DNA from: Hyphomicrobiales bacterium
GTDB taxonomy: Bacteria > Pseudomonadota > Alphaproteobacteria > Rhizobiales > Xanthobacteraceae
NCBI GenBank assembly: GCA_017305715.1
Contig: JAFKKG010000013.1
Location: 248,001 to 312,000 of the forward strand
Length of the DNA stretch: 64,000 bases
Direction of reading: 5' to 3'
In this document: one piece after another, positions 29,385-39,028 of the stretch
How the letters are laid out: every line of letters begins with the position of its first letter
Numbering within the stretch: position 1 is the stretch's first letter
Notes under the pieces: model-generated
Database searches by the model: none
What the model saw: only the letters and a program-made list of their open reading frames with translations
What the model was told of the DNA's origin: nothing
Program-made: the position numbers and the translations under genes

Positions 29385-31238
29385 TCAGGGTCTGGCCGCT
29401 GCGCGACCGGCAAGAATCGCGGCAATCGCCGGATTGCCGTCGGCCTCGAGCGCTGCGAGGCGCTCGCGCGCCCAAAGATAGGCCGTGTCAAAGATCTCGG
29501 TGTGACGTTCGAATTCGGTGATGCCGACGCCATGCGGTATCGGTGGCCGCATGACGTAGTCGAGCGGCGCGGCGGGAATCGTATCGTAACGCTGATGGGC
29601 GACGAGACTTCGCCACAGCACATTGACTGCGCTCGGGGCGGCCGGAAGCAGCTTCTTGCGAAACGGCATCAGCATTGCGGTAGCCAGCTCCAACCGGCCA
29701 GGCAACGCGGCATAATCGACGTCAAACGTCTCGACTGAGGGGCCGCCGAAATGCACCACCAGATTGGGGCCGCTTTTCAGTTGATGCATCGGATCCAGCG
29801 GAACATTGTCGATCAGACATCCATCGACCAGCATCGCGCCTTCCTTGGTGTAGAGCGGCGGCAACAGGCCCGGAATGGCGCTCGATGCGCGGACCGCCTG
29901 CCACAACAGGCCCGACCGGATCAGCTCTAGGCCGTGGGTGGACAAATTGGTTGCGACCGCCGCGAACGGCCGCCAGCAATCCTCGATCCGGCATTGCGCA
30001 CCGTATTGGTCGGCGAGCGCGCGATCGAACGCCTTGTGGTCCAGCAACGCGTATCTCGGCCAGGTCGGCCGGCGAAAGCTGCGGCTCTTCACGAAGATCT
30101 CGTGCGTGCCGCGCTCGAGGCGATCGGCCTCGTAGTTCTTGGCGAAACCGGCGGCCATGGCGGAGCCGACGCTGGTTCCGATGAAGATATCGAAAATCAC
30201 GCCGCGTTCGCGAAACGCCTTGTAGATGCCGGCATGCGCCGATCCGAAACTGCCGCCGCCGGCCGCCACAAATCCGATCGCGCGCCCGGACAGGAAACGG
30301 ATCAGGCTGTCGATGTCGGCCTGATCCTCGAGCGCGACGTGGTGGTGCATGAAGCAGGGCAGGCGAACAAGCCAGGCTGCGGTGCCGCTGACTTCACCAT
30401 TGCGCCGGTCGTGAACGCGTACGATGCGCCGCGCCGACACCGGATGTACCTTGCAAGCGAAGGCCTCGATCTCGGTCAGACCTTCCGCCGGCGCATCGCC
30501 GCGGCACGCCAACGCGACCATGTCGGCCTGCCGAATGGCTTTCCGAGTCCATTCCGGCACCTCGCCACTGCCGAGATAGATCACGAGCGGCGAGACCTGT
30601 TCCAGCTTGTTGAGCCAGTCGGTGACTTCGGGGGCGTCCAGCGCCCGGCCGGGAAACATCGAACTGACACGGGCGGGATCGACGATCTGGGCGTCGGTCC
30701 TGGCGAGACCCTCGCGTATGCGGCGGTAAAAAGCCGCCGGAATGGGCTCGCGCCCTCCATCGATGAGGGCCACCGTTCGCGCGGTCGGTGAGGTGCGCGT
30801 TGTTGGAATCTGCTCCGTTCGCTTTGCGAACCGCAGCGCGAGCGCCGCCAGCAACGCCTCGGCAATCGCCGGAGTGCCTTCCGCAAGTTTCTGGTAAGCA
30901 GCCCGTGTCAGCACGAGCACGCTGGTGTCGCGGATTGCGATGACGTTGGCGGTGCGGGTCAGGCTGGCGAAGAAGCCGACTTCACCGATCAGTTCGCCGG
31001 CACGGAGTTCGGCGATCGGCAGCGTCTCACCGCTGCGGCGCACGGCGAGCGCGCCGTGCAGCACGATATAGAGGGAATCGGCTGGATCTCCCTGCGCGAC
31101 CAGCGTTTCGCCGCGGACGAGGTCCTGCCGGACCATGGCGTCAAAGGTCTTGAACCGCTGCTCAGGCGTGAGCGCCTTGAACAGCGCGAGGTCCTCCGAC
31201 AAGCTCCCCCACGCAAATACCGGACCTGGCTTACTCAT
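29385..31238 (-). CDS. Patatin-like phospholipase with N-terminal cyclic-nucleotide-binding domain
   Basis: A 617-residue NTE-like lipase. The N-terminus (about 15-130) is a cNMP-binding fold (LVAQGDPADSLYIVLHGALA, GELIGEVGFFASLTRTANV). The C-terminal patatin domain has AGGGSFGSAHAG (oxyanion loop), the catalytic Ser in GTSVGSAM and the Asp in VDGCLIDNVP, where DGC stands in for the usual DGG/DGA. Such enzymes are serine lysophospholipases or esterases, usually membrane-associated. It lies 276 bp downstream of the Gly-rich peptide gene, past a terminator, on the same strand as the exporter operon. A link to the peptide system is possible but unproven. Confidence 0.9.
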   Translation of the reverse strand: MSKPGPVFAWGSLSEDLALFKALTPEQRFKTFDAMVRQDLVRGETLVAQGDPADSLYIVLHGALAVRRSGETLPIAELRAGELIGEVGFFASLTRTANVIAIRDTSVLVLTRAAYQKLAEGTPAIAEALLAALALRFAKRTEQIPTTRTSPTARTVALIDGGREPIPAAFYRRIREGLARTDAQIVDPARVSSMFPGRALDAPEVTDWLNKLEQVSPLVIYLGSGEVPEWTRKAIRQADMVALACRGDAPAEGLTEIEAFACKVHPVSARRIVRVHDRRNGEVSGTAAWLVRLPCFMHHHVALEDQADIDSLIRFLSGRAIGFVAAGGGSFGSAHAGIYKAFRERGVIFDIFIGTSVGSAMAAGFAKNYEADRLERGTHEIFVKSRSFRRPTWPRYALLDHKAFDRALADQYGAQCRIEDCWRPFAAVATNLSTHGLELIRSGLLWQAVRASSAIPGLLPPLYTKEGAMLVDGCLIDNVPLDPMHQLKSGPNLVVHFGGPSVETFDVDYAALPGRLELATAMLMPFRKKLLPAAPSAVNVLWRSLVAHQRYDTIPAAPLDYVMRPPIPHGVGITEFERHTEIFDTAYLWARERLAALEADGNPAIAAILAGRAAARP

Positions 31239-31463
31239 CGACGATTTCCACTGCGACGACAGGATGTTATCGCCAGCCGTGTCCGGCGGCGAGCGATATC
31301 AGGCCCTGTTGGGCACGCAATTGCGGTATTCCGCGGCCATGGGCCGGTTGGCGAAGCCGGGCAATCCGGAACACGGCTCATTGCTGCACAGCAAAACGGG
31401 ATGCGGCATGCCTGTGCCACGTCCCGCTTCGACACGGACGGACCAGGACCGTCCCAAAAACAA
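31239..31463. other. Intergenic stretch between terminator and patatin gene
   Basis: These 225 bp between the terminator downstream of the peptide gene and the patatin start hold no gene I can support. On the minus strand, TGGCGATAACAT near 31260-31271 resembles an extended -10 element that could serve the patatin gene. A 36-codon minus-strand frame (31299-31409) was considered and rejected. Confidence 0.4.
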
Positions 31464-31490
31464 AAGAGACCACCGTTGGGGCGGTCTCTT
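31464..31490 (-). terminator. Rho-independent terminator of the Gly-rich peptide gene
   Basis: Arms AAGAGACC (31464-31471) and GGTCTCTT (31483-31490) pair perfectly over 8 bp. Reading leftwards they are followed by TTGTTTTTGGG, a good T-tract for this GC-rich genome. The terminator begins 24 bp after the stop of the 54-residue peptide gene and separates it from the patatin gene. Confidence 0.8.
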
Positions 31491-31514
31491 CCGTGCGGTA
31501 AACGCCGTCAGTGC

Positions 31515-31679
31515 TCAGAAGCGGAAAATGCCCCGGAGCAGGTTGCGCAGCCAGCCGAGGCCGTCGCCGCCGCCGGTGCCCTTGCCGCCGCCGCCGCCGG
31601 TGCCGCCACCGGTACCGTCGCCATGCGCGCCGCCGTTAACGATGGAAAGCTGTTCGTCATTGAGAAGGTCGTGGTTCAT
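31515..31679 (-). CDS. Gly-rich double-glycine-leader peptide (bacteriocin/microcin-like precursor)
   Basis: A 54-residue gene read directly from the sequence. Leader residues 1-17 (MNHDLLNDEQLSIVNGG) have the class II bacteriocin pattern: hydrophobics at -12 (Leu6), -7 (Leu11) and -4 (Val14) and Gly16-Gly17 at the cut site. The predicted 37-residue core has 17 Gly, no Cys, no Ser and three Thr. It ends in LGWLRNLLRGIFRF, an amphipathic helix with Arg45, Arg49 and Arg53 four residues apart. AGGAG lies just before ATG 31679. The C39-peptidase exporter, second ABC and HlyD genes are immediately upstream on the same strand. I find no modification enzyme nearby, so an unmodified peptide is likely. 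Target and activity are unknown. Confidence 0.85.
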   Translation of the reverse strand: MNHDLLNDEQLSIVNGGAHGDGTGGGTGGGGGKGTGGGDGLGWLRNLLRGIFRF

Positions 31680-31756
31680 GTCGTCTCCTGTTCTAGAGAA
31701 GGGGGAATCCGCTTCATCTATGGGCAGGAAGTTACGAGTGGCATCGGCATGGCGCA

Positions 31757-31770
31757 GTGATTGGAGTCAC
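31757..31770. promoter_or_regulatory. CRP/FNR-like palindrome upstream of peptide gene (proximal)
   Basis: GTGA-TTGGAG-TCAC has the half-sites and 6-bp spacing of the CRP consensus TGTGA-N6-TCACA. It is centred about 84 bp upstream of the peptide ATG (31679), in the 127-bp gap after the second ABC gene. A second box is 37 bp further upstream. Confidence 0.5.
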
Positions 31771-31793
31771 GTTGCCAAAGATCCTTTTCCGAC

Positions 31794-31807
31794 GTGATCC
31801 AAATCAC
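31794..31807. promoter_or_regulatory. CRP/FNR-like palindrome upstream of peptide gene (distal)
   Basis: GTGA-TCCAAA-TCAC, which on the minus strand reads GTGATTTGGATCAC, also fits the FNR-type core TGAT-N4-ATCA. It touches the stop codon of the second ABC gene. Two such boxes in tandem suggest that the peptide has its own regulated promoter, separate from the exporter operon. Confidence 0.5.
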
Positions 31808-34713
31808 TAAAGCAATTGGCGTTTGGCGAACGAAGCGAACATTCCCGGCGTGTTGCTGAGTTCATCATAGCTTCCGGTCTGCACCACCTTGCCGTCGACG
31901 AGAACGATAATGCGATCCGCCTGACGCACGGTTGAGAGCCGATGCGCGATGATGATCCGCGTCACATTGAGGTTGCCGAGCGAGTTGCTCACGATCGCCT
32001 GCGACTGGTTGTCGAGGGCACTGGTCGCCTCATCGAACAGCAGGATCCGGGGGCGGCGCGCGACGGCGCGGGCGATCATGATCCGCTGCCGCTGGCCGCC
32101 GGACAGCGTGTTGACGCCTTCGGAGACCACGGTGTTCATGCCCATCGGCATCGCCTTGATGTCGTCTTCCAGACCGGCGAGCCGTGCCGCCTCCCAGGCC
32201 AATTCAAGAGGCAGCTGAACGCCGCCGCAGATATTGTCGTAGAGGCTGCCGGTTGCGAGCTTGCCGTTCTGCAGAACGACGCCAAGCTGGCGGCGCACCG
32301 CGCTGATGTCGAGCGTGTCGATGGCCTTGCCGTCGAGGAACACCGTGCCGGATTCCGCCTTCTCGAATCCCAGCAACAGCCGGAACAGCGAGGATTTGCC
32401 GCTGCCGGAAGGGCCGACAATGGCGACGTACTCGCCCTGGGCAATTCTCAAGGAAACATTCTCGAGCACCGGCGGGCCACTTTGCGAATAGCGGAAGGTG
32501 ACACGGGACAATTCGACCGTTCCGGACAGCTCGCCCGGGGATTTCCGTTCGTCCGACAGTTCGGCTTCGCCTGAAATCAGTGGGCGCAGACGGGTGATGC
32601 GCGGGATCGCAATCAAGGATTCGCTGATGCCCGAAGCCCATGAGCCGATGGACGACATCGATTGTCCGAATGCGGCAAAGAAGGCGAGGAAGCCGCCGAC
32701 ATCCAGCAGCATTTTGCTGTTCAGGTACGTCGCTGCCGCGAAAATGATCAGGGTGGCGATCAGCGGAAACGCCGTCTCGAATACACCGAGGGCGTTGGAC
32801 GCCTTTTGCGACGAGATGAAATTGCGCTTCTGTGCCGCGAATTGCTTCGACCAAACGGCGAGCGCACGCGCGGTCGCATCGGCAACGCGGAGCTTCCCGA
32901 TGCCGGCGATCAGTTGCAGCACAAAGCCGCCGATCTTGCCCTGCTCGGTGAAGTACTTGTTCTCGTAATAGAGCCGTAACCCGCTGGTCGCGATAATCAG
33001 CAGCGCCCGGATCAACGTCAGCAGCAGCGCGATCAATCCGAGCTTGAGATCGTAATAGAGCATCAGGGCAATGCTGAACCAGGCGAACACGCCCATCAGC
33101 ATGCTGCGCAGCGCACGCCCGGTGAAGACCCGGCGCGCCGCGTCGATGCCCATCGATCGATCGACGAAATCGCCGACAGTGTATTCCCGGAATAGCGACG
33201 TCGGTAGTCTAAGCATCCGGTCGATCACCGCCGCCTGCAGCCGCCAATCCATCAGGCCTTCGACCTTCAGCATCGCCAGTCCTTCCATGGTCTGGATACT
33301 GGCGGTGGCGATGGCCGTGACGGCGAGGGCGAGCGCACAAAATACCAGCTGATCGAGTTCGCTGCGCGGAATGACGGAATTGACGAGCAGGCTGGTGATC
33401 TGGGGCGTCACCAGCGAGAGCAGCCCGATTGCAATGATCGCGATCACGATCCGCAGGAAGCTTCCGGTGGAATGCTTGAACGCGAAGGTCAACAGATCCC
33501 GGAACCGGAGCGGGCGTGCGGGAAGGGCCGGATAGAACGACACGGCTTCCGGTGCCAGTTCCATCGCGAGCGCCCGATCGACGGTGCGCTGGGTCCCCGT
33601 CGTGGTGTCCAGCATCACATAGCGGCGGGCGCCCCGGCGAATGAGCGCGACTGGATTTCGTGCCTCGCCATGCCAGGCAACGAGCGGGCCGGCGTCTTGT
33701 TGCCACCATTCGCCCCGCAACAACGTCCGGCGAACGCGCAGCCGGGCTGCCCGGGCGATCTCGACGGCGCCGTTAAATCCAGGTTCGGCGTGCAGCGGGC
33801 GGGGCGGGATGGCGAATGGCATCCGGATCGCCTCCACGACGATCCGGCAGGCGTTGAACAGCGGATCCGCTGAGTCCGTTGCGATCACGGTATGGCCCGT
33901 GCGCTGTACGACGACGTTGGAAAGGCGCTCAAAGGATTCCGCGGTCTGCGCCGCAATCAACTCACGGCGCAGAACGAGACGCCGTGCTTCCCGCTCGGCG
34001 TCGTAAGCCAGATATTCCCGGACACAACTGGCAACGCCGAGATGGAATTGATCGACGGCGCGCCACAATTGGTCGGCATCCGGTATCGCCTCGGAGCCAA
34101 GCATGTTGCAGCCTGATGCGCCCGTCTCGATCCACATGCCTGATGTGAGCGGCAAGGGCGGACTGCCCGGCGCGATCGCCGGATCCAGGCCCATTGGCTT
34201 CGCCGCGCCGGCTTCAAGAGTAACCCACACGATGCTGCGGGCCGGACCACGGCGCCGTTCACTCGGCGGTACGGCAGCGGCGTCCTCGGTCGGCACTTCG
34301 AGCATGTCCCAACTCGGGTTGGGTCCTGCGATCAGCCGCGCAAGCCGCCTGATCCATGTGGTGACGGGATCGGTGGACTGAATGTCCGCCCGCGGCACGA
34401 GCAATGCTTCGGCGCCGAGGCTTCCGACCGCGAGCACCTGCACTTGGGCGTCCGAACGATTAAAACCTGACTGCAGGTCGAGAAGGATCTCTCCGCTTTC
34501 GACCCGGAACAGATGATGCCGGGCGCCTTCGGTACTGCCTTCGACCAGTCTGACCGCGAATACGTCGACATGTCCCGCCGTGACCTGAAGCGCGTGGCCG
34601 TGATGATCGAGGAGCCTTGGGTGACGGCCATCGAATACGATTTGTCCCGCGGTGCGGGCGCTCGCTTCCTGATTGGCCGCCGGCCCGGCCGCCTGGATGA
34701 GAGATTCGCTCAT
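31807..34713 (-). CDS. NHLP/NHLM-type bacteriocin export ABC transporter without peptidase
   Basis: A 968-residue ABC exporter half with a large N-terminal domain of about 400 residues that is neither C39 nor transmembrane, as in the NHLM-system ATP-binding proteins. The membrane domain begins near FLRIVIAIIAIGLLSLVTPQ. The nucleotide domain (about 733-968) has Walker A GPSGSGKSS (767-775), [19 protein letters not shown] and AHRLSTV. ATG 34713 overlaps the stop of the peptidase-ABC gene (ATGA), so the two are coupled and probably form one export complex. The peptide gene follows after 127 bp. Confidence 0.9.
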   Translation of the reverse strand: MSESLIQAAGPAANQEASARTAGQIVFDGRHPRLLDHHGHALQVTAGHVDVFAVRLVEGSTEGARHHLFRVESGEILLDLQSGFNRSDAQVQVLAVGSLGAEALLVPRADIQSTDPVTTWIRRLARLIAGPNPSWDMLEVPTEDAAAVPPSERRRGPARSIVWVTLEAGAAKPMGLDPAIAPGSPPLPLTSGMWIETGASGCNMLGSEAIPDADQLWRAVDQFHLGVASCVREYLAYDAEREARRLVLRRELIAAQTAESFERLSNVVVQRTGHTVIATDSADPLFNACRIVVEAIRMPFAIPPRPLHAEPGFNGAVEIARAARLRVRRTLLRGEWWQQDAGPLVAWHGEARNPVALIRRGARRYVMLDTTTGTQRTVDRALAMELAPEAVSFYPALPARPLRFRDLLTFAFKHSTGSFLRIVIAIIAIGLLSLVTPQITSLLVNSVIPRSELDQLVFCALALAVTAIATASIQTMEGLAMLKVEGLMDWRLQAAVIDRMLRLPTSLFREYTVGDFVDRSMGIDAARRVFTGRALRSMLMGVFAWFSIALMLYYDLKLGLIALLLTLIRALLIIATSGLRLYYENKYFTEQGKIGGFVLQLIAGIGKLRVADATARALAVWSKQFAAQKRNFISSQKASNALGVFETAFPLIATLIIFAAATYLNSKMLLDVGGFLAFFAAFGQSMSSIGSWASGISESLIAIPRITRLRPLISGEAELSDERKSPGELSGTVELSRVTFRYSQSGPPVLENVSLRIAQGEYVAIVGPSGSGKSSLFRLLLGFEKAESGTVFLDGKAIDTLDISAVRRQLGVVLQNGKLATGSLYDNICGGVQLPLELAWEAARLAGLEDDIKAMPMGMNTVVSEGVNTLSGGQRQRIMIARAVARRPRILLFDEATSALDNQSQAIVSNSLGNLNVTRIIIAHRLSTVRQADRIIVLVDGKVVQTGSYDELSNTPGMFASFAKRQLL

Positions 34714-36938
34714 TCCTGGGCCACGAGCTTTGCATAGGCACCGCCGAGTGCCATCAGCTGTTCATGGGTTCCTCGCTCGACGATCTTGCCCAATTGCAGC
34801 ACGATGATCTCGTCGCAATCGCGGATGGTGCTGAGACGGTGCGCGATGATGATGCAGGTGCAGCCGCGCCGCCGCAGATTGTCGTCGATGATCTTTTCGG
34901 TGATCGGATCGAGCGCACCGGTGGCCTCGTCGAGCACGAGGACGGAGGGATTTGAAACCAGCGCCCGGGCGATTTCGATCCGCTGGCGCTGGCCGCCGCT
35001 GAAATTGGTGCCGCCTTCGTTGACATAGCAATCGTAATTTCCCGTCCGCGTCGCGATGTCCTCATGGATCACGGCATCGTGCAGCGCCTGCGAAAGGTCG
35101 GCCTCGGTGACGGTCGTGTCCCACAAAGTGAGGTTCTCGCGGGCCGTTCCCTCGAACAGGAAGATGTCCTGGTCGACATAGGTGACCGAGTTGGCAAATA
35201 CTTGCGGCGGGATTTCCGGCAATGGCCAGCCATCGATGCGAACGTCGCCTGCCCACGGTCTGTAGAGCCCGCAAATCAGCTTTCCGAGCGTCGATTTTCC
35301 GCTGCCGGAGGCGCCGACAAGGGCGACCCGTGAACCCGGATGGATATTGATGGAGATGTCATCCAGCAGCGGCGCCTCCAGGATGGAGTAGCCGAACTTG
35401 ATATTGCTGAGTTCGACCTTGCCGGTGAGTTTTGGCGGGAAGCGCTCCGGCGCGGCGGGAGACTTTTCCGACTTGTCGAGCGGGTAATTGTAGACGTCTT
35501 CCAGGCGTTCGAGCCCGCCCTTGATGGTCTGCAGGCTGCCGACATAATTGACGAGTTCGTTGACGGGTTCGGAAAAACTCGCCATCAGCGATTGGAAGGC
35601 CACGAGGCCGCCGAGCGTCAGGGATCCCTCGATCACGCGCAGCCCGCCGACGCCGAGGATGGCCGCAACGGTCAATCCCGTAAACAGCGTCGGCAGCATA
35701 TCGAGATAGATCGAGGAAGCGCCCAGTTCCTGTTCGGCGTTCAAGGCCTTGGCCTGGATCCCGGCCCATTGCCCGAAGGCTTCGTCCTCCAGCCCGCTCG
35801 CTTTCAGGGTTTCGATGCTGCGGACGGCGCCGACCGTCGAGCCGACGAGTTTGCCTTGCTCCAGTGCAAGACTGCGGCTCAGGTCCTCCCGGCGCTCGCT
35901 GATGAATTTCAACGCCAGCACGTTCACGAGCGTCATGCTCACGCCAATGATGGTCAGTGGCAGATCGTAAATGGCCATGGCGGCGGCGAAGAACACGATC
36001 GATGTCAGATTGAGCGCATTCGACGCCACACCGCTCGAGAGCAGGCGCCCGATCTGCTCGTTGGCGCCGACGCGGTTGGAAATGTCGCCGGCATGCCGCT
36101 GGGTAAAGAATTCGATCGGCAGCGACATGACGTGCCAGAGAAAGCGGCTGACCATCACGACCGAAAGCTTGGTCTGCAGCCGCAGCAGCAGCGACTGGCG
36201 CACCAGTGTCAAAAGCGCGCGGATGATCGCGGTCAGGCCCATGCCGATCAGCAGCGGAATAAGCCAACTGCCGGTACGCTGGATCAGGATGTGGTCGATG
36301 AATATCTTGGAGAAGCCGGCGGCGACGATGGCCGGCACCACCAGCGCGAGGCTCACGAGCACCAGCAGGGCAACGGGGGTCTTGGATGAGCGCAATTCGC
36401 GCAGCAGCAGCCGCATTCCCAGCGGCTTGCTGCCTGACCGCCGAAACCCGGCGGTCGGCTCCATGGTAAGTGCAACGCCGGTGAAGGAAAGGTCGAGTTC
36501 GACCATGTCGGTGCGGCGGCGCCCGACCGCGGGGTCGTTGATATAGACGTCGCCGCCGTCGATCCCTTCCAGCACCACGAAATGATTGAAATTCCAGTGT
36601 ATGATGCAGGGCATCGGCAGTTCATGCAGCGTCGTCGGCTCCTTGCGGAAACCCTTGGCGTCGAAACCGAAGGTGCGCGCCGCTCTGACGATGTTGCTGG
36701 CCTTGCTGCCGTCGCGCGAGACACCGCACGAAACGCGAAGCTGTTCGAGCGGAATCCACGCGCCGTGATGTGCGAGCACCATCGCCAGCGCGGCGGCGCC
36801 GCACTCGACGGCTTCCATCTGCAGGATGGTCGGCGTCTTCTTGACGTTCCGGCGCCAGAACATCCTGCGGAACCGGTGCCACAGCGATGGCGGCTGGACC
36901 TCGGGCAGAGGCGGTTGCTGCGATGAAGCGTTATCCAT
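34710..36938 (-). CDS. Peptidase-containing ABC transporter (C39 protease) of NHLP bacteriocin system
   Basis: A 742-residue PCAT. The N-terminal C39 peptidase carries oxyanion Gln40, catalytic Cys46 (LQMEAVECGAAALAM), His119 (NFNHFVVLEG) and Asp135 (INDPAVG), all intact. It would cut after the double glycine of the leader while exporting the core. The membrane domain spans roughly 185-460. The nucleotide domain has Walker A GASGSGKST (542-550), FSGGQRQR and VLVLDEATGALD. It overlaps HlyD by 8 bp upstream and the second ABC by 4 bp downstream. The substrate is most likely the 54-residue Gly-rich peptide at 31515. Confidence 0.94.
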   Translation of the reverse strand: MDNASSQQPPLPEVQPPSLWHRFRRMFWRRNVKKTPTILQMEAVECGAAALAMVLAHHGAWIPLEQLRVSCGVSRDGSKASNIVRAARTFGFDAKGFRKEPTTLHELPMPCIIHWNFNHFVVLEGIDGGDVYINDPAVGRRRTDMVELDLSFTGVALTMEPTAGFRRSGSKPLGMRLLLRELRSSKTPVALLVLVSLALVVPAIVAAGFSKIFIDHILIQRTGSWLIPLLIGMGLTAIIRALLTLVRQSLLLRLQTKLSVVMVSRFLWHVMSLPIEFFTQRHAGDISNRVGANEQIGRLLSSGVASNALNLTSIVFFAAAMAIYDLPLTIIGVSMTLVNVLALKFISERREDLSRSLALEQGKLVGSTVGAVRSIETLKASGLEDEAFGQWAGIQAKALNAEQELGASSIYLDMLPTLFTGLTVAAILGVGGLRVIEGSLTLGGLVAFQSLMASFSEPVNELVNYVGSLQTIKGGLERLEDVYNYPLDKSEKSPAAPERFPPKLTGKVELSNIKFGYSILEAPLLDDISINIHPGSRVALVGASGSGKSTLGKLICGLYRPWAGDVRIDGWPLPEIPPQVFANSVTYVDQDIFLFEGTARENLTLWDTTVTEADLSQALHDAVIHEDIATRTGNYDCYVNEGGTNFSGGQRQRIEIARALVSNPSVLVLDEATGALDPITEKIIDDNLRRRGCTCIIIAHRLSTIRDCDEIIVLQLGKIVERGTHEQLMALGGAYAKLVAQE

Positions 36939-38199
36939 CGAGGCCGGTGTACTTCTTGAGCAGCGGCACCACCAGATCGAGCGGGCGTTGCCGCCGTGTG
37001 GTGATTTCCGCGCGCGTCAGCGTGCCGCTGGTGAGGCGGACAGGCGGCCCACTTCCCACCGCCCAGCGGTAGCCGCTGACGGTCGCCGGATCCGGCTCCA
37101 GGCTGACGGTCGCCGCGTAGGCGGCGCCTTCCTTTGAGAAGCGGGTGACCAGATTGTCGTTATGGAGGACGGCCGCCATGCCTTGCGGCGTCATCGGGAA
37201 ATCGGAGATCGTCACGACGGTGCCGACCATGGTCCCGAACTCTTCACGCTTCACCGTAGAGGGCTCGATGCGAACCGGCATCCCGACCTTCACGTTCTTG
37301 CCGCGTTCGGCCGGAATATAGATCAGGGCTTCGAGCTTCTGGCCCTCGCTCTCGATGGCGACCACCGGCGCGCCGACCGCGAGCACGGCGCCGGCGGAGA
37401 CCTTGACTTCGAGCACGCGGCCCTCGACGGGGCTGACGACCTGGGTGTTCTGGGTGAGCAGGCTTGCCGCGGATTCCATCTGCCGGCGGGCGTCATTGAG
37501 CGCAAACTCGGATGTCTGGGTCTCGCGTTCGCGCTGGGTTTCCAGATCGGTCTGTGAAGTTCGCAGCTTGAGGATTTCGTTGAACGTATCTTCCTTGCGC
37601 TGCTGGGCGTCGGTGAGATCACGTCGTCGCTCTTCAAGCGTGCGCCGGGTCGTCAATCCCTTCGCCATCAGATCTTCGAGCGTCTTGACGTCGTTGGTCA
37701 GATACTCGATCCGCTGCGTGGTCGCCTTGATCACCTGGTTGAAGGCGGCTTCGAGCTTGCTGAGATTCTGGGCCTTCACCACCAGTTCGCGCTTGGTCTT
37801 CTCGATCAGGTCGGCGTGCTGGCGCTCCTTCTCGCGAAACACTTCGACGGCGGCGGCGTGGCGCTGCTGGATGTCGGTTTGAACGATCTCGGCGATCGGT
37901 TGCCCCTGGGTGACGCGATCGCCGACCATGACGTTGATCGTCGCCAGTCTTCCGGCGGCGGACGAGGCGGCCTCGACGACGCGGCCGCCGCCGCTGATCA
38001 GGATGCCCTGGCCTTCGGCGCGGGTAGGGACGCGCCCGACGACGCCCCATGTGACCGCTGCGACAAGGGCGATGCAGATGGCGAATACCAGCATCCAGTC
38101 GAACGGCCGGGTAATGCGGACGAGATGGTCAAGTTGTTCGGGCGAGGCGGCGCGTTGCAGCGCCACGGCGCGAAATGTCCGCTGCGTAAGATCGCTCAT
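36931..38199 (-). CDS. HlyD-family periplasmic adaptor of NHLP bacteriocin export system
   Basis: A 422-residue membrane-fusion protein. It has a single transmembrane helix near residues 34-55 (FDWMLVFAICIALVAAVTWG), a lipoyl half-motif, a long coiled coil at about 110-235 (LSKLEAAFNQ, LEERRRDLTDAQQRKEDTF) and a second lipoyl half (VVSPVEGRVLEVKVSAGAVL). It bridges the inner-membrane ABC exporter to an outer-membrane channel; no TolC homologue is in the window. It is the first gene of the three-gene operon and overlaps the peptidase-ABC gene by 8 bp. Confidence 0.92.
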   Translation of the reverse strand: MSDLTQRTFRAVALQRAASPEQLDHLVRITRPFDWMLVFAICIALVAAVTWGVVGRVPTRAEGQGILISGGGRVVEAASSAAGRLATINVMVGDRVTQGQPIAEIVQTDIQQRHAAAVEVFREKERQHADLIEKTKRELVVKAQNLSKLEAAFNQVIKATTQRIEYLTNDVKTLEDLMAKGLTTRRTLEERRRDLTDAQQRKEDTFNEILKLRTSQTDLETQRERETQTSEFALNDARRQMESAASLLTQNTQVVSPVEGRVLEVKVSAGAVLAVGAPVVAIESEGQKLEALIYIPAERGKNVKVGMPVRIEPSTVKREEFGTMVGTVVTISDFPMTPQGMAAVLHNDNLVTRFSKEGAAYAATVSLEPDPATVSGYRWAVGSGPPVRLTSGTLTRAEITTRRQRPLDLVVPLLKKYTGLDG

Positions 38200-38455
38200 T
38201 TTTCTCGGTCCGTATTCGTACCGAGGAGCGTCCCCCCAGACGCGAGCAGTCGATGATTTTGTCGATCACGCACAGCTCTGTTCCTCTTGCGGCCGGATCA
38301 TACACGAAAGCCGCCCCGGAACAACCAAACGGGCCGGGCGGTCCGTGCCGGATCGCGCGCTCGCCGTGCAAAAATGACGCAGGCCGTGCTCTGACGACCC
38401 TAGCAGTGCGCGCCATGGCGAACTATGCTTGCCGGCTATGGTCGAGGTTGATCCA
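38200..38455. promoter_or_regulatory. Divergent intergenic region upstream of the export operon
   Basis: These 256 bp separate the leftward HlyD operon from the rightward secreted-protein gene. Promoters for both should lie here, but I find no clear -35/-10 pair or palindrome of the types seen elsewhere in the window, and no short gene with a ribosome site. Confidence 0.35.
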
Positions 38456-39028
38456 ATGGGCGTGTCCGCCGTCAGGAAGTTGGTCGGGAGCAAGACACGA
38501 CCCATCTGCGTGCCGGCCAGGCGTTCCGTGGCTGGCCCGCGCCGGCGGTGGATCGGATCGCTCGCGATTGGCGCTGTGATGCTCGCGCTGGCGCCCGGTA
38601 TCTCGCGTAGCGGCGTCCTGAGCGAAAGCGACTTCAAGAAAGTCGAGACCATAAAGCCGCTGTTCCAGAACTTGATGATCGATCTCGTCCAGACCTCGAA
38701 ACGATCGGATATTTCCAGCGGCGACGCCGATTGTGTCATGTCTACCATCCGTGAACTTCTTCAGATATCCGAGGAGCTTTCGAGTTACGAATATCTGATC
38801 ACAATCGAAAAGGAGATCACCGATTCCGGGGACAACAGTCCGATTAAAGGCGTCGTGAAGTTTGCGATCGAAAAGTCCAATACGATTCTTGCGGAGGAAC
38901 GGAAACGATTGCTTCAAGTGTCGGACCGATGCTCGCGGTTTCCGTTGGCCTTCAGCAAGAACCAGCAGGCACTGCAATTCATCGACACGACGACCAACCT
39001 TCTCAATTCCATTCAAGTCCGTCTGTGA
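38456..39028 (+). CDS. Secreted/periplasmic protein of unknown function divergent from export operon
   Basis: A protein of about 190 residues that I do not recognise. An Arg-rich N-terminus (PRRRW) precedes a hydrophobic segment (IGSLAIGAVMLALAPGIS) that looks like a signal peptide or signal anchor. The rest is helical, with two Cys (in SGDADCVMST and SDRCSRF). GAGG at 38444-38447 supports ATG 38456; in-frame TTG 38429 and ATG 38438 are alternatives. Its divergent position from the HlyD operon suggests an accessory or self-protection role for the peptide system, but there is no motif to prove this. Confidence 0.65.
   Translation: MGVSAVRKLVGSKTRPICVPARRSVAGPRRRWIGSLAIGAVMLALAPGISRSGVLSESDFKKVETIKPLFQNLMIDLVQTSKRSDISSGDADCVMSTIRELLQISEELSSYEYLITIEKEITDSGDNSPIKGVVKFAIEKSNTILAEERKRLLQVSDRCSRFPLAFSKNQQALQFIDTTTNLLNSIQVRL

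Follow-up and report, generated by a model that had tools for sequence, protein, structure and literature searches.

A glycine-rich double-glycine peptide gene behind an NHLM-type exporter looks like one of about 27 precursors dispersed over a Bradyrhizobium genome

In the NHLM/NHLP bacteriocin export systems, as set out in the available part of Haft et al. 2010 (PMC2887384), an exporter gene trio (TIGR03794, TIGR03796 and TIGR03797) is accompanied by precursors with a common leader and hypervariable cores, of which some species carry many per genome, some of them far from the exporter. The cyanobacterial bacteriocin clusters described by Wang et al. 2011 (PMC3140520) combine a C39-ABC, an ABC and an HlyD gene with several varied-core double-glycine (GG) precursors per cluster; in the part of that paper available to us, Bradyrhizobium is named twice, each time as a tree outgroup. 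Small GG-motif proteins are also secreted with the aid of a C39 transporter in Synechococcus elongatus, in which PteB is needed for efficient secretion of the four co-transcribed EbfG1-4 proteins and EbfG enables biofilm, according to the available text (PMC4997328). The Bradyrhizobium locus analysed here has the exporter trio in common with the NHLM/NHLP systems, and its precursors likewise have a common leader and hypervariable cores, are many per genome and in some cases lie far from the exporter. Unlike the precursors of the cyanobacterial clusters in the part of that paper available, most of them are distant from the exporter, and they match no NHLP or N11P model where tested; unlike EbfG1-4, the set is dispersed and variable. 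They resemble class II GG microcins and bacteriocins (PF10439, TIGR01847 and TIGR03949) in having a short GG leader and a small core without known modification, with the differences that the exporter-adjacent precursor, P0001, scored below the PF10439 gathering cut-off (18.5 vs 27.1 bits) and that no immunity gene was recognised.

The locus lies in a 64-kb window (the whole stretch of DNA that was analysed) and comprises the following features.

31460 to 31494, minus strand: terminator-like 15-bp hairpin with a U-rich 3' side directly after P0001, from folding against shuffles
31515 to 31679, minus strand: P0001, GG-leader precursor gene of 54 aa with an ATG start (leader 31629-31679, core 31518-31628)
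31685 to 31689, minus strand: Shine-Dalgarno sequence AGGAG, 5 nt before the P0001 ATG
31807 to 34713, minus strand: ABC2, peptidase-free second ABC transporter (NHLM_micro_ABC2; TIGR03797, 860.9 bits, cut-off 709.4)
34710 to 36938, minus strand: ABC1, C39 peptidase/permease/ATPase (NHLM_micro_ABC1; TIGR03796, 1060.2 bits, cut-off 853.3)
36931 to 38199, minus strand: HlyD-type adaptor (NHLM_micro_HlyD; TIGR03794, 292.6 bits, cut-off 156.2)
38429 to 39028, plus strand: P0006, divergent partner gene, likely start 38456

The HlyD/C39-ABC/ABC cassette passed all three NHLM exporter models above their curated cut-offs, and its genes overlap on the same strand by 8 nt (hlyD and C39-ABC) and 4 nt (C39-ABC and ABC2), with P0001 sitting 127 nt behind. 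The C39 domain of ABC1 covers residues 35-163 (PF03412, E 2e-36, profile positions 2-132 of 133) and retains Q40, C46, H119 and D135, which we take to be the catalytic residues; the peptidase is thus intact by sequence, and a PF03412 search of the genome returned ABC1 as the sole C39 peptidase match.

Leaders of class II double-glycine bacteriocins and microcins follow a rule of hydrophobic residues at -12, -7 and -4 and GG at -2/-1. The 17-aa leader of P0001, MNHDLLNDEQLSIVNGG, satisfies this rule with L at -12, L at -7, V at -4 and GG at -2/-1. Its 37-aa core contains 17 Gly, 3 Thr, 4 Lys/Arg and 2 Asp and has neither Cys nor Ser. The C-terminal segment GLGWLRNLLRGIFRF, whose boundaries were picked by eye, has a hydrophobic moment of 0.735, a value reached by 129 of 20,000 shuffles. 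An earlier note on this DNA had called the 54-aa precursor with its leader positions and Shine-Dalgarno sequence, the glycine-rich core free of Cys and Ser, the amphipathic C-terminal segment, the overlapping same-strand exporter genes of NHLM type with an intact C39 domain, and the lack of a modification enzyme nearby, all of which our analysis bears out, the last among the 10 flanking proteins tested. Its view that the peptide differs from nitrile-hydratase-leader peptides also holds, P0001 being neither an NHLP nor a Nif11-type precursor (no NCBIfam match at E<=0.001, and a leader of 17 aa), as does its distinction from lanthipeptides; the residues of the core and ten flanking proteins without such an enzyme set P0001 apart from lanthipeptides and azole-modified peptides alike.

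A strict ORF scan requiring a GG leader, two acidic residues and a Shine-Dalgarno sequence returned one match in the window, against a mean of 0.02 per simulated window (2 of the 100 control windows had one). The stretch holding the hairpin (31445-31514) folded with a z of -3.11 and was equalled in stability by none of 200 shuffles; a consensus terminator scan (8 terminator-like sites vs 5.7 expected) did not list the hairpin, probably because the stem takes up the U run. A consensus promoter scan found two sites against 1.7 expected, both on the plus strand within ABC1. P0001 recurs at the corresponding position of four further Bradyrhizobium genomes (L009-L012), with 80-85% identity. Across its core dN is about 0.107 vs a dS of 0.31-0.42, on small counts (8 non-synonymous and 8-10 synonymous changes), and the same comparison gave no sign of constraint on the leader (3-5 non-synonymous, 0-1 synonymous). 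P0001 is a genuine gene whose product is very probably a secreted peptide.

The P0001 family is a Gly/Thr-rich tract joined to an amphipathic helix, with a paralogue on another contig of the same genome. Full-length P0001-type genes were present in only 5 of the 14 genomes of one search, and one genome (G481) holds broken copies. A second search found a readable Gly/Thr-rich member in 11 of 16 genomes (our own, G300, G479, G220, G481, G431, G390, G541, G534, G425 and G540) and nothing readable in G429; the G472 peptide diverges from the family inside the core, the G426 match is a different peptide family, the G470 match is limited to the leader, and the member in G354, a genome without the exporter, has an internal stop. 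GG-leader ORFs were convincing by eye at 31 of 42 scanned exporter loci (among which L058 and L059 repeat L012 and L009) and not at the other 11 (L015, L016, L063, L079, L081, L082, L086 and L088-L091), of which at least two (L016 and L081) stop at the exporter genes or close to them, which leaves the precursor place out of view; a first short-flank scan, with loci reaching only 1.5 kb past ABC1, printed no GG candidate. Conservation of the small ORF beside related exporters, which the earlier note had made the check on its reading, therefore held in part: the gene stands behind the exporter in five genomes, our own included, and the flanks of more distant loci hold other GG peptides or none recognised.

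A leader model built from 31 rows from exporter genomes, five of them from our own, gave 30 matches in the P0001 genome. Three (L156, L157 and L158) fall within long proteins and were left out, and 27 were read as GG precursors with varied cores. For 19 of the 24 dispersed ORFs looked at, the selected start scores 5/6 or more against AGGAGA, a count in which starts were chosen for that match and no shuffled control was used. Plainly, the contig-18 core and a peptide adjoining the exporter in L067 are of one family, and the contig-25 core, by eye, resembles exporter-adjacent peptides in L067, L070, L071, L073, L074 and L076. P0001 thus looks like one of about 27 peptides scattered over the genome with a common export machine. 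A shared upstream regulatory word for 24 of our own GG ORFs was judged too weak: the best 8-mer occurred in 5 of 24, and the maxima in 50 shuffles were 3 (41 times), 4 (8 times) and 2 (once), none reaching 5.

The same association appears across the genus. We surveyed 265 Bradyrhizobium genomes, 70 with the exporter and 195 without it at a 1e-150 threshold, below which weaker GG exporters may exist. Leaders matched in 60 of the 70 exporter genomes (381 matches; the other 10 gave none) vs 7 of the 195 (7 matches), a co-occurrence count that is biased upward because the genomes are related by descent and the model was trained on exporter genomes. The earlier note had described a self-contained system. 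That description fails because a single C39 peptidase was found and about 26 more precursors are dispersed over the genome; P0006, too, is linked to the system. A bacteriocin with one exporter and one peptide, the other GG-leader ORFs being unrelated or dead, would suit the position of P0001, which is co-directional with the exporter, lies after it and precedes a terminator-like hairpin, but we consider it very improbable in view of the lone C39 peptidase, the co-occurrence of leaders and exporter across the genus, and the kinship of the contig-18 and contig-25 cores with exporter-adjacent peptides elsewhere.

Three of ten sister peptides tested pass a curated bacteriocin model and seven match none above cut-off. 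The contig-41 peptide passes TIGR03949 (class IIb; 26.7 bits, cut-off 21.5) and the contig-17 peptide the TIGR01847 leader model (15.9 bits, cut-off 15.7); the contig-18 peptide, scored as a protein, passes PF10439 (27.2 bits, cut-off 27.1), marginally so because the genome search scored the same place at 26.3 bits, below the cut-off, and PF10439 also gave weak signals in 8 of 14 control genomes. The likeliest reading is that the NHLM cassette cleaves and exports a set of unmodified peptides resembling class II microcins; we put the probability of this whole explanation (dispersed GG peptides through one exporter, with bacteriocin-like cores) at roughly 0.55. The C39 domain of ABC1 would cut P0001 after Gly17, and ABC1, ABC2 and HlyD, together with an outer-membrane channel encoded elsewhere, would export the unmodified 37-aa core, whose putatively flexible Gly/Thr tract leads into a cationic amphipathic helix. 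Some 26 further GG-leader peptides from around the genome may leave by the same cassette, which would make the locus an export hub for a dispersed, fast-changing peptide set. We infer this export from the exporter families and the co-occurrence. The cores would most probably act outside the cell on related bacteria as membrane-active, class II microcin- or bacteriocin-like peptides. The bacteriocin side is favoured by the amphipathic C-terminal segments, the different peptides at related exporters, the broken copies in G481 and the three model passes; against it stand the PF10439 score of P0001 and the lack of a recognised immunity gene beside the precursors. Around 24 dispersed precursors no immunity-like family recurs, a comparison that would miss one-off immunity genes, and the recurrent neighbours are repeats, sister peptides, a dehydrogenase and an ATPase domain. 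If the explanation is right, a widespread nitrogen-fixing soil genus holds a hidden store of many secreted peptides from very small genes, the whole set could be reached through one gene deletion, and rhizobial peptide competition for roots and nodules becomes directly testable.

The absence of recognised immunity genes and the seven sister peptides without a model match would also fit secreted matrix or colonisation factors rather than antibiotics; the Gly/Thr tract would then contribute a segment of matrix or fibre and the helix would serve as an anchor. Their models would be EbfG1-4, GG-motif proteins that depend on the C39 Cys of PteB in the part of the source available (PMC4997328). We think this rather unlikely: varied cores, exchanged at related exporters, are more in keeping with arms races than with a conserved function in a matrix, and three sister peptides pass a bacteriocin model. 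Still less probable, in our judgement, are cell-to-cell signals or plant-host-directed peptides for kin recognition or symbiosis, akin to Gram-positive peptide pheromones. The exporter is of ComA's general type (entries 8hf4, 8hf6 and 8hf7 are named competence factor transporter), and the contig-17 leader weakly resembles ComC (PF03047, 14.4 bits, cut-off 20.4), but about 27 mostly unrelated cores per genome are many for signals, and the 10 flanking proteins tested serve metabolism or transport, and none of them is a receptor or two-component system.

The export-hub reading gains a candidate partner in P0006, which is present in 60 of the 70 exporter genomes of the Bradyrhizobium survey vs none of the 195 others. 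By our reading its N-terminus is signal-like; a four-helix bundle is predicted after it, and two Cys are invariant in 24 of 24 aligned sequences. A comparison of the fold with the PDB gave no match at E<=0.001, and those listed are mostly generic helical bundles, so we read no function from it. P0006 may be an accessory protein of the periplasm or one that gives general protection, and for immunity it is a candidate only. A bolder proposal, which we hold to be doubtful, is that one C39 exporter and an obligatory periplasmic P0006 serve dozens of unlinked precursors, each built as a shared upstream region and leader plus an interchangeable core, and that P0006 acts as a general protector or chaperone in place of peptide-specific immunity, so that cores change freely. 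Should the export-hub explanation itself be right, P0006 would already serve to mark the system and might represent a novel mode of self-protection. This tightly linked gene was missing from the list in the earlier note.

We also considered the neighbouring gene P0005 (29385-31238) as a part of the system and rejected it: with 27 of 70 exporter genomes vs 63 of 195 others carrying it (p 0.38), it lacks the link to the exporter that the leaders have. It encodes a patatin and a cyclic-nucleotide domain and has a partial match (41.4 bits, cut-off 161.05) to the 'bacteriocin-type transport-associated' model TIGR03896.

The peptide gene proposed in the earlier note, P0001, is borne out by an ORF of 54 amino acids that starts with ATG, carries AGGAG 5 bases upstream of the start and encodes a double-glycine (GG) leader of 17 residues followed by a 37-residue core containing 17 Gly but neither Cys nor Ser. 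A strict ORF scan gave one match in the window, against a mean of 0.02 per simulated window (n = 100), and the hydrophobic moment of the amphipathic C-terminal segment of P0001 was equalled in 129 of 20,000 shuffles. The gene lies 127 nt downstream of three overlapping same-strand exporter genes, whose NHLM type, likewise claimed earlier, is upheld by products scoring above the TIGR03797, TIGR03796 and TIGR03794 models. The P0001 stop codon is followed by a hairpin of 15 bp, U-rich on one side, which is not among the sites found by a consensus terminator scan of the window. The features are as follows.

29385–31238 (−), P0005, patatin and cyclic-nucleotide-binding protein adjoining the peptide gene
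31515–31679 (−), P0001, Gly-rich GG-leader precursor
31807–34713 (−), ABC2, peptidase-free ABC protein
34710–36938 (−), ABC1, C39 peptidase ABC protein
36931–38199 (−), hlyD
38429–39028 (+), P0006, divergent from hlyD

Four further genomes (L009–L012) have P0001 in the corresponding position, at 80–85% identity. Its core has a dN of about 0.107 and a dS of 0.31–0.42 (four mutually non-independent comparisons), derived from small counts of 8 non-synonymous and 8–10 synonymous changes; the leader has 3–5 and 0–1, respectively. For comparison, ABC2 gave a dN of 0.063–0.067 and a dS of 0.64–0.65 (two comparisons). On the basis of the core and leader counts and dN/dS, purifying selection on P0001 is visible in the core only, where it is mild. 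A profile of the five sequences (E ≤ 0.01) matched 14 of 265 Bradyrhizobium genomes, among which full-length P0001-type genes are limited to the five that supplied the profile. Widening the profile with a paralogue on contig 35 and with L069 gave matches in 16 of the 265 genomes; of these 16, 15 carry the exporter and 11 a readable Gly/Thr-rich member. These members begin with GDG, continue with a Gly/Thr-rich tract and finish in a hydrophobic amphipathic end. The genome holding the window (7.45 Mb; closest named relatives, Bradyrhizobium) has two family members, P0001 and the contig-35 paralogue (MTNLKDELSMDQLDIACGG / KDGDGNGTGTGKGDGLGWLRRLGGEIVGAVKSIFGL). The additional Gly-rich peptide copies of genome G481 (L125, L126, L127 and L112) are disrupted or out of frame, which suggests that peptide genes are recently born and lost.

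In other genomes the exporter is accompanied by GG-leader peptides of quite another kind, frequently several per locus and flanking it on both sides; judged by eye, such peptides are present at 31 of 42 loci and absent from 11. The genome with the closest ABC1, G470 (94% across residues 1–561, where its contig ends), encodes on a different contig a peptide (L123, 4457–4612 (−)) that joins the leader MNRDLLNDDQLSIVNGG, almost identical to that of P0001, to an unrelated core. DNA similarity between this locus and the window covers the leader and the region upstream of it (31629–31737); the BLAST match stops at the final base of the GG codons. Such a boundary, seen in this single case, would be expected of a leader cassette whose cores can be exchanged.

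A 31-row leader model spanning 17 positions (5 rows from the window's own genome, 1 from G470 and 25 from exporter loci) gave, at E ≤ 10, 30 matches in the own genome, of which 27, by reading, would be small GG precursors and three pieces of long proteins. One extra GG ORF, adjoining L144, lies beyond these 30. The chosen start is preceded by at least five of six matches to AGGAGA in 19 of 24 ORFs, the starts having been selected for that match. The contig-18 core and a peptide adjoining the L067 exporter are clearly members of one family, and on visual comparison the contig-25 core (NWLGDIGRW...) looks similar to the NWLGDAFRAIGG peptides found at L067, L070, L071, L073, L074 and L076.

At these six loci GG peptides come in pairs, F[IF]NDGGCIGPWIV.. 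with NWLGDA[FL]RAIGGAI.., placed to one side of the exporter or to both, like two-peptide bacteriocins. The motif NPQPLPP recurs in otherwise dissimilar GG-peptide cores at L120 (2030–2218 (−)) and L131 (1396–1659 (−), contig 35 of the own genome), and likewise in GG-leader peptides of L114 and L062. Near four dispersed peptide genes (L134, L140, L144 and L150), mutually matching ORFs overlie an apparent repeated intergenic element.

ABC1 is present in 70 of the 265 Bradyrhizobium genomes (E ≤ 1e-150). At E ≤ 0.02, the leader model gave 381 matches in 60 of these 70, and one match each in 7 of the 195 genomes without the exporter. Weighing against this association, the model was itself trained on exporter genomes, the genomes counted are related by descent, and 10 exporter genomes had no match. 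P0005, as a control, showed no exporter linkage (27 of 70 versus 63 of 195, p 0.38).

C39 transporters cleave after GG and export the core. The C39 domain of ABC1 is matched by PF03412 across its length, and solved structures that align to the protein from peptidase through ATPase include 8vp3, 4ry2 and ComA (8hf4). By extension from the established transporters, ABC1 would cut P0001. It probably also acts on the other GG precursors of the own genome, because it is the only C39 peptidase found there (PF03412 search, E ≤ 0.01). A single exporter serving many precursors is already known in kind: Haft et al. 2010 (PMC2887384) describe the same exporter with precursors of hypervariable core, some distant from it, and Wang et al. 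2011 (PMC3140520) describe cyanobacteria with numerous varied GG precursors. Among the open-access matches listed, no title or abstract opening described a GG-peptide set of this kind in Bradyrhizobium.

P0001 and its sister peptides would most likely have a class II microcin-like role, as suggested by the amphipathic C-terminal segment, the exchange of peptides, the broken copies and the three of ten sister peptides above curated bacteriocin cut-offs (TIGR03949, TIGR01847 and PF10439). Counting against this role, P0001 itself falls below the PF10439 cut-off, the PF10439 pass of the sister peptide is borderline (26.3 bits, below cut-off, in the genome search), the other seven sister peptides pass none, and immunity-like families do not recur next to the dispersed GG genes; the proposals that the peptides may serve biofilm, in the manner of EbfG as described in PMC4997328, or signalling remain rivals.

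P0006, absent from the earlier note, likely starts at 38456. It was detected (E ≤ 1e-10) in 60 of the 265 genomes, comprising 60 of the 70 with the exporter and 0 of the 195 without. In 58 of the 60, no more than 6 kb separates it from ABC1; in the remaining two the genes are on separate contigs. Of the ten exporter genomes without P0006, two had a leader match, and leaders there may diverge from the model. P0006 had no match in NCBIfam or Pfam, and a PDB fold search of it gave none at E ≤ 0.001. The AlphaFold model (mean pLDDT 74.6) has a confidently predicted bundle made up of four long helices; the N-terminus ahead of it is predicted poorly (residues 1–51 below 50), and we read it as a signal peptide. 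Two cysteines are kept in all 24 aligned P0006 proteins.
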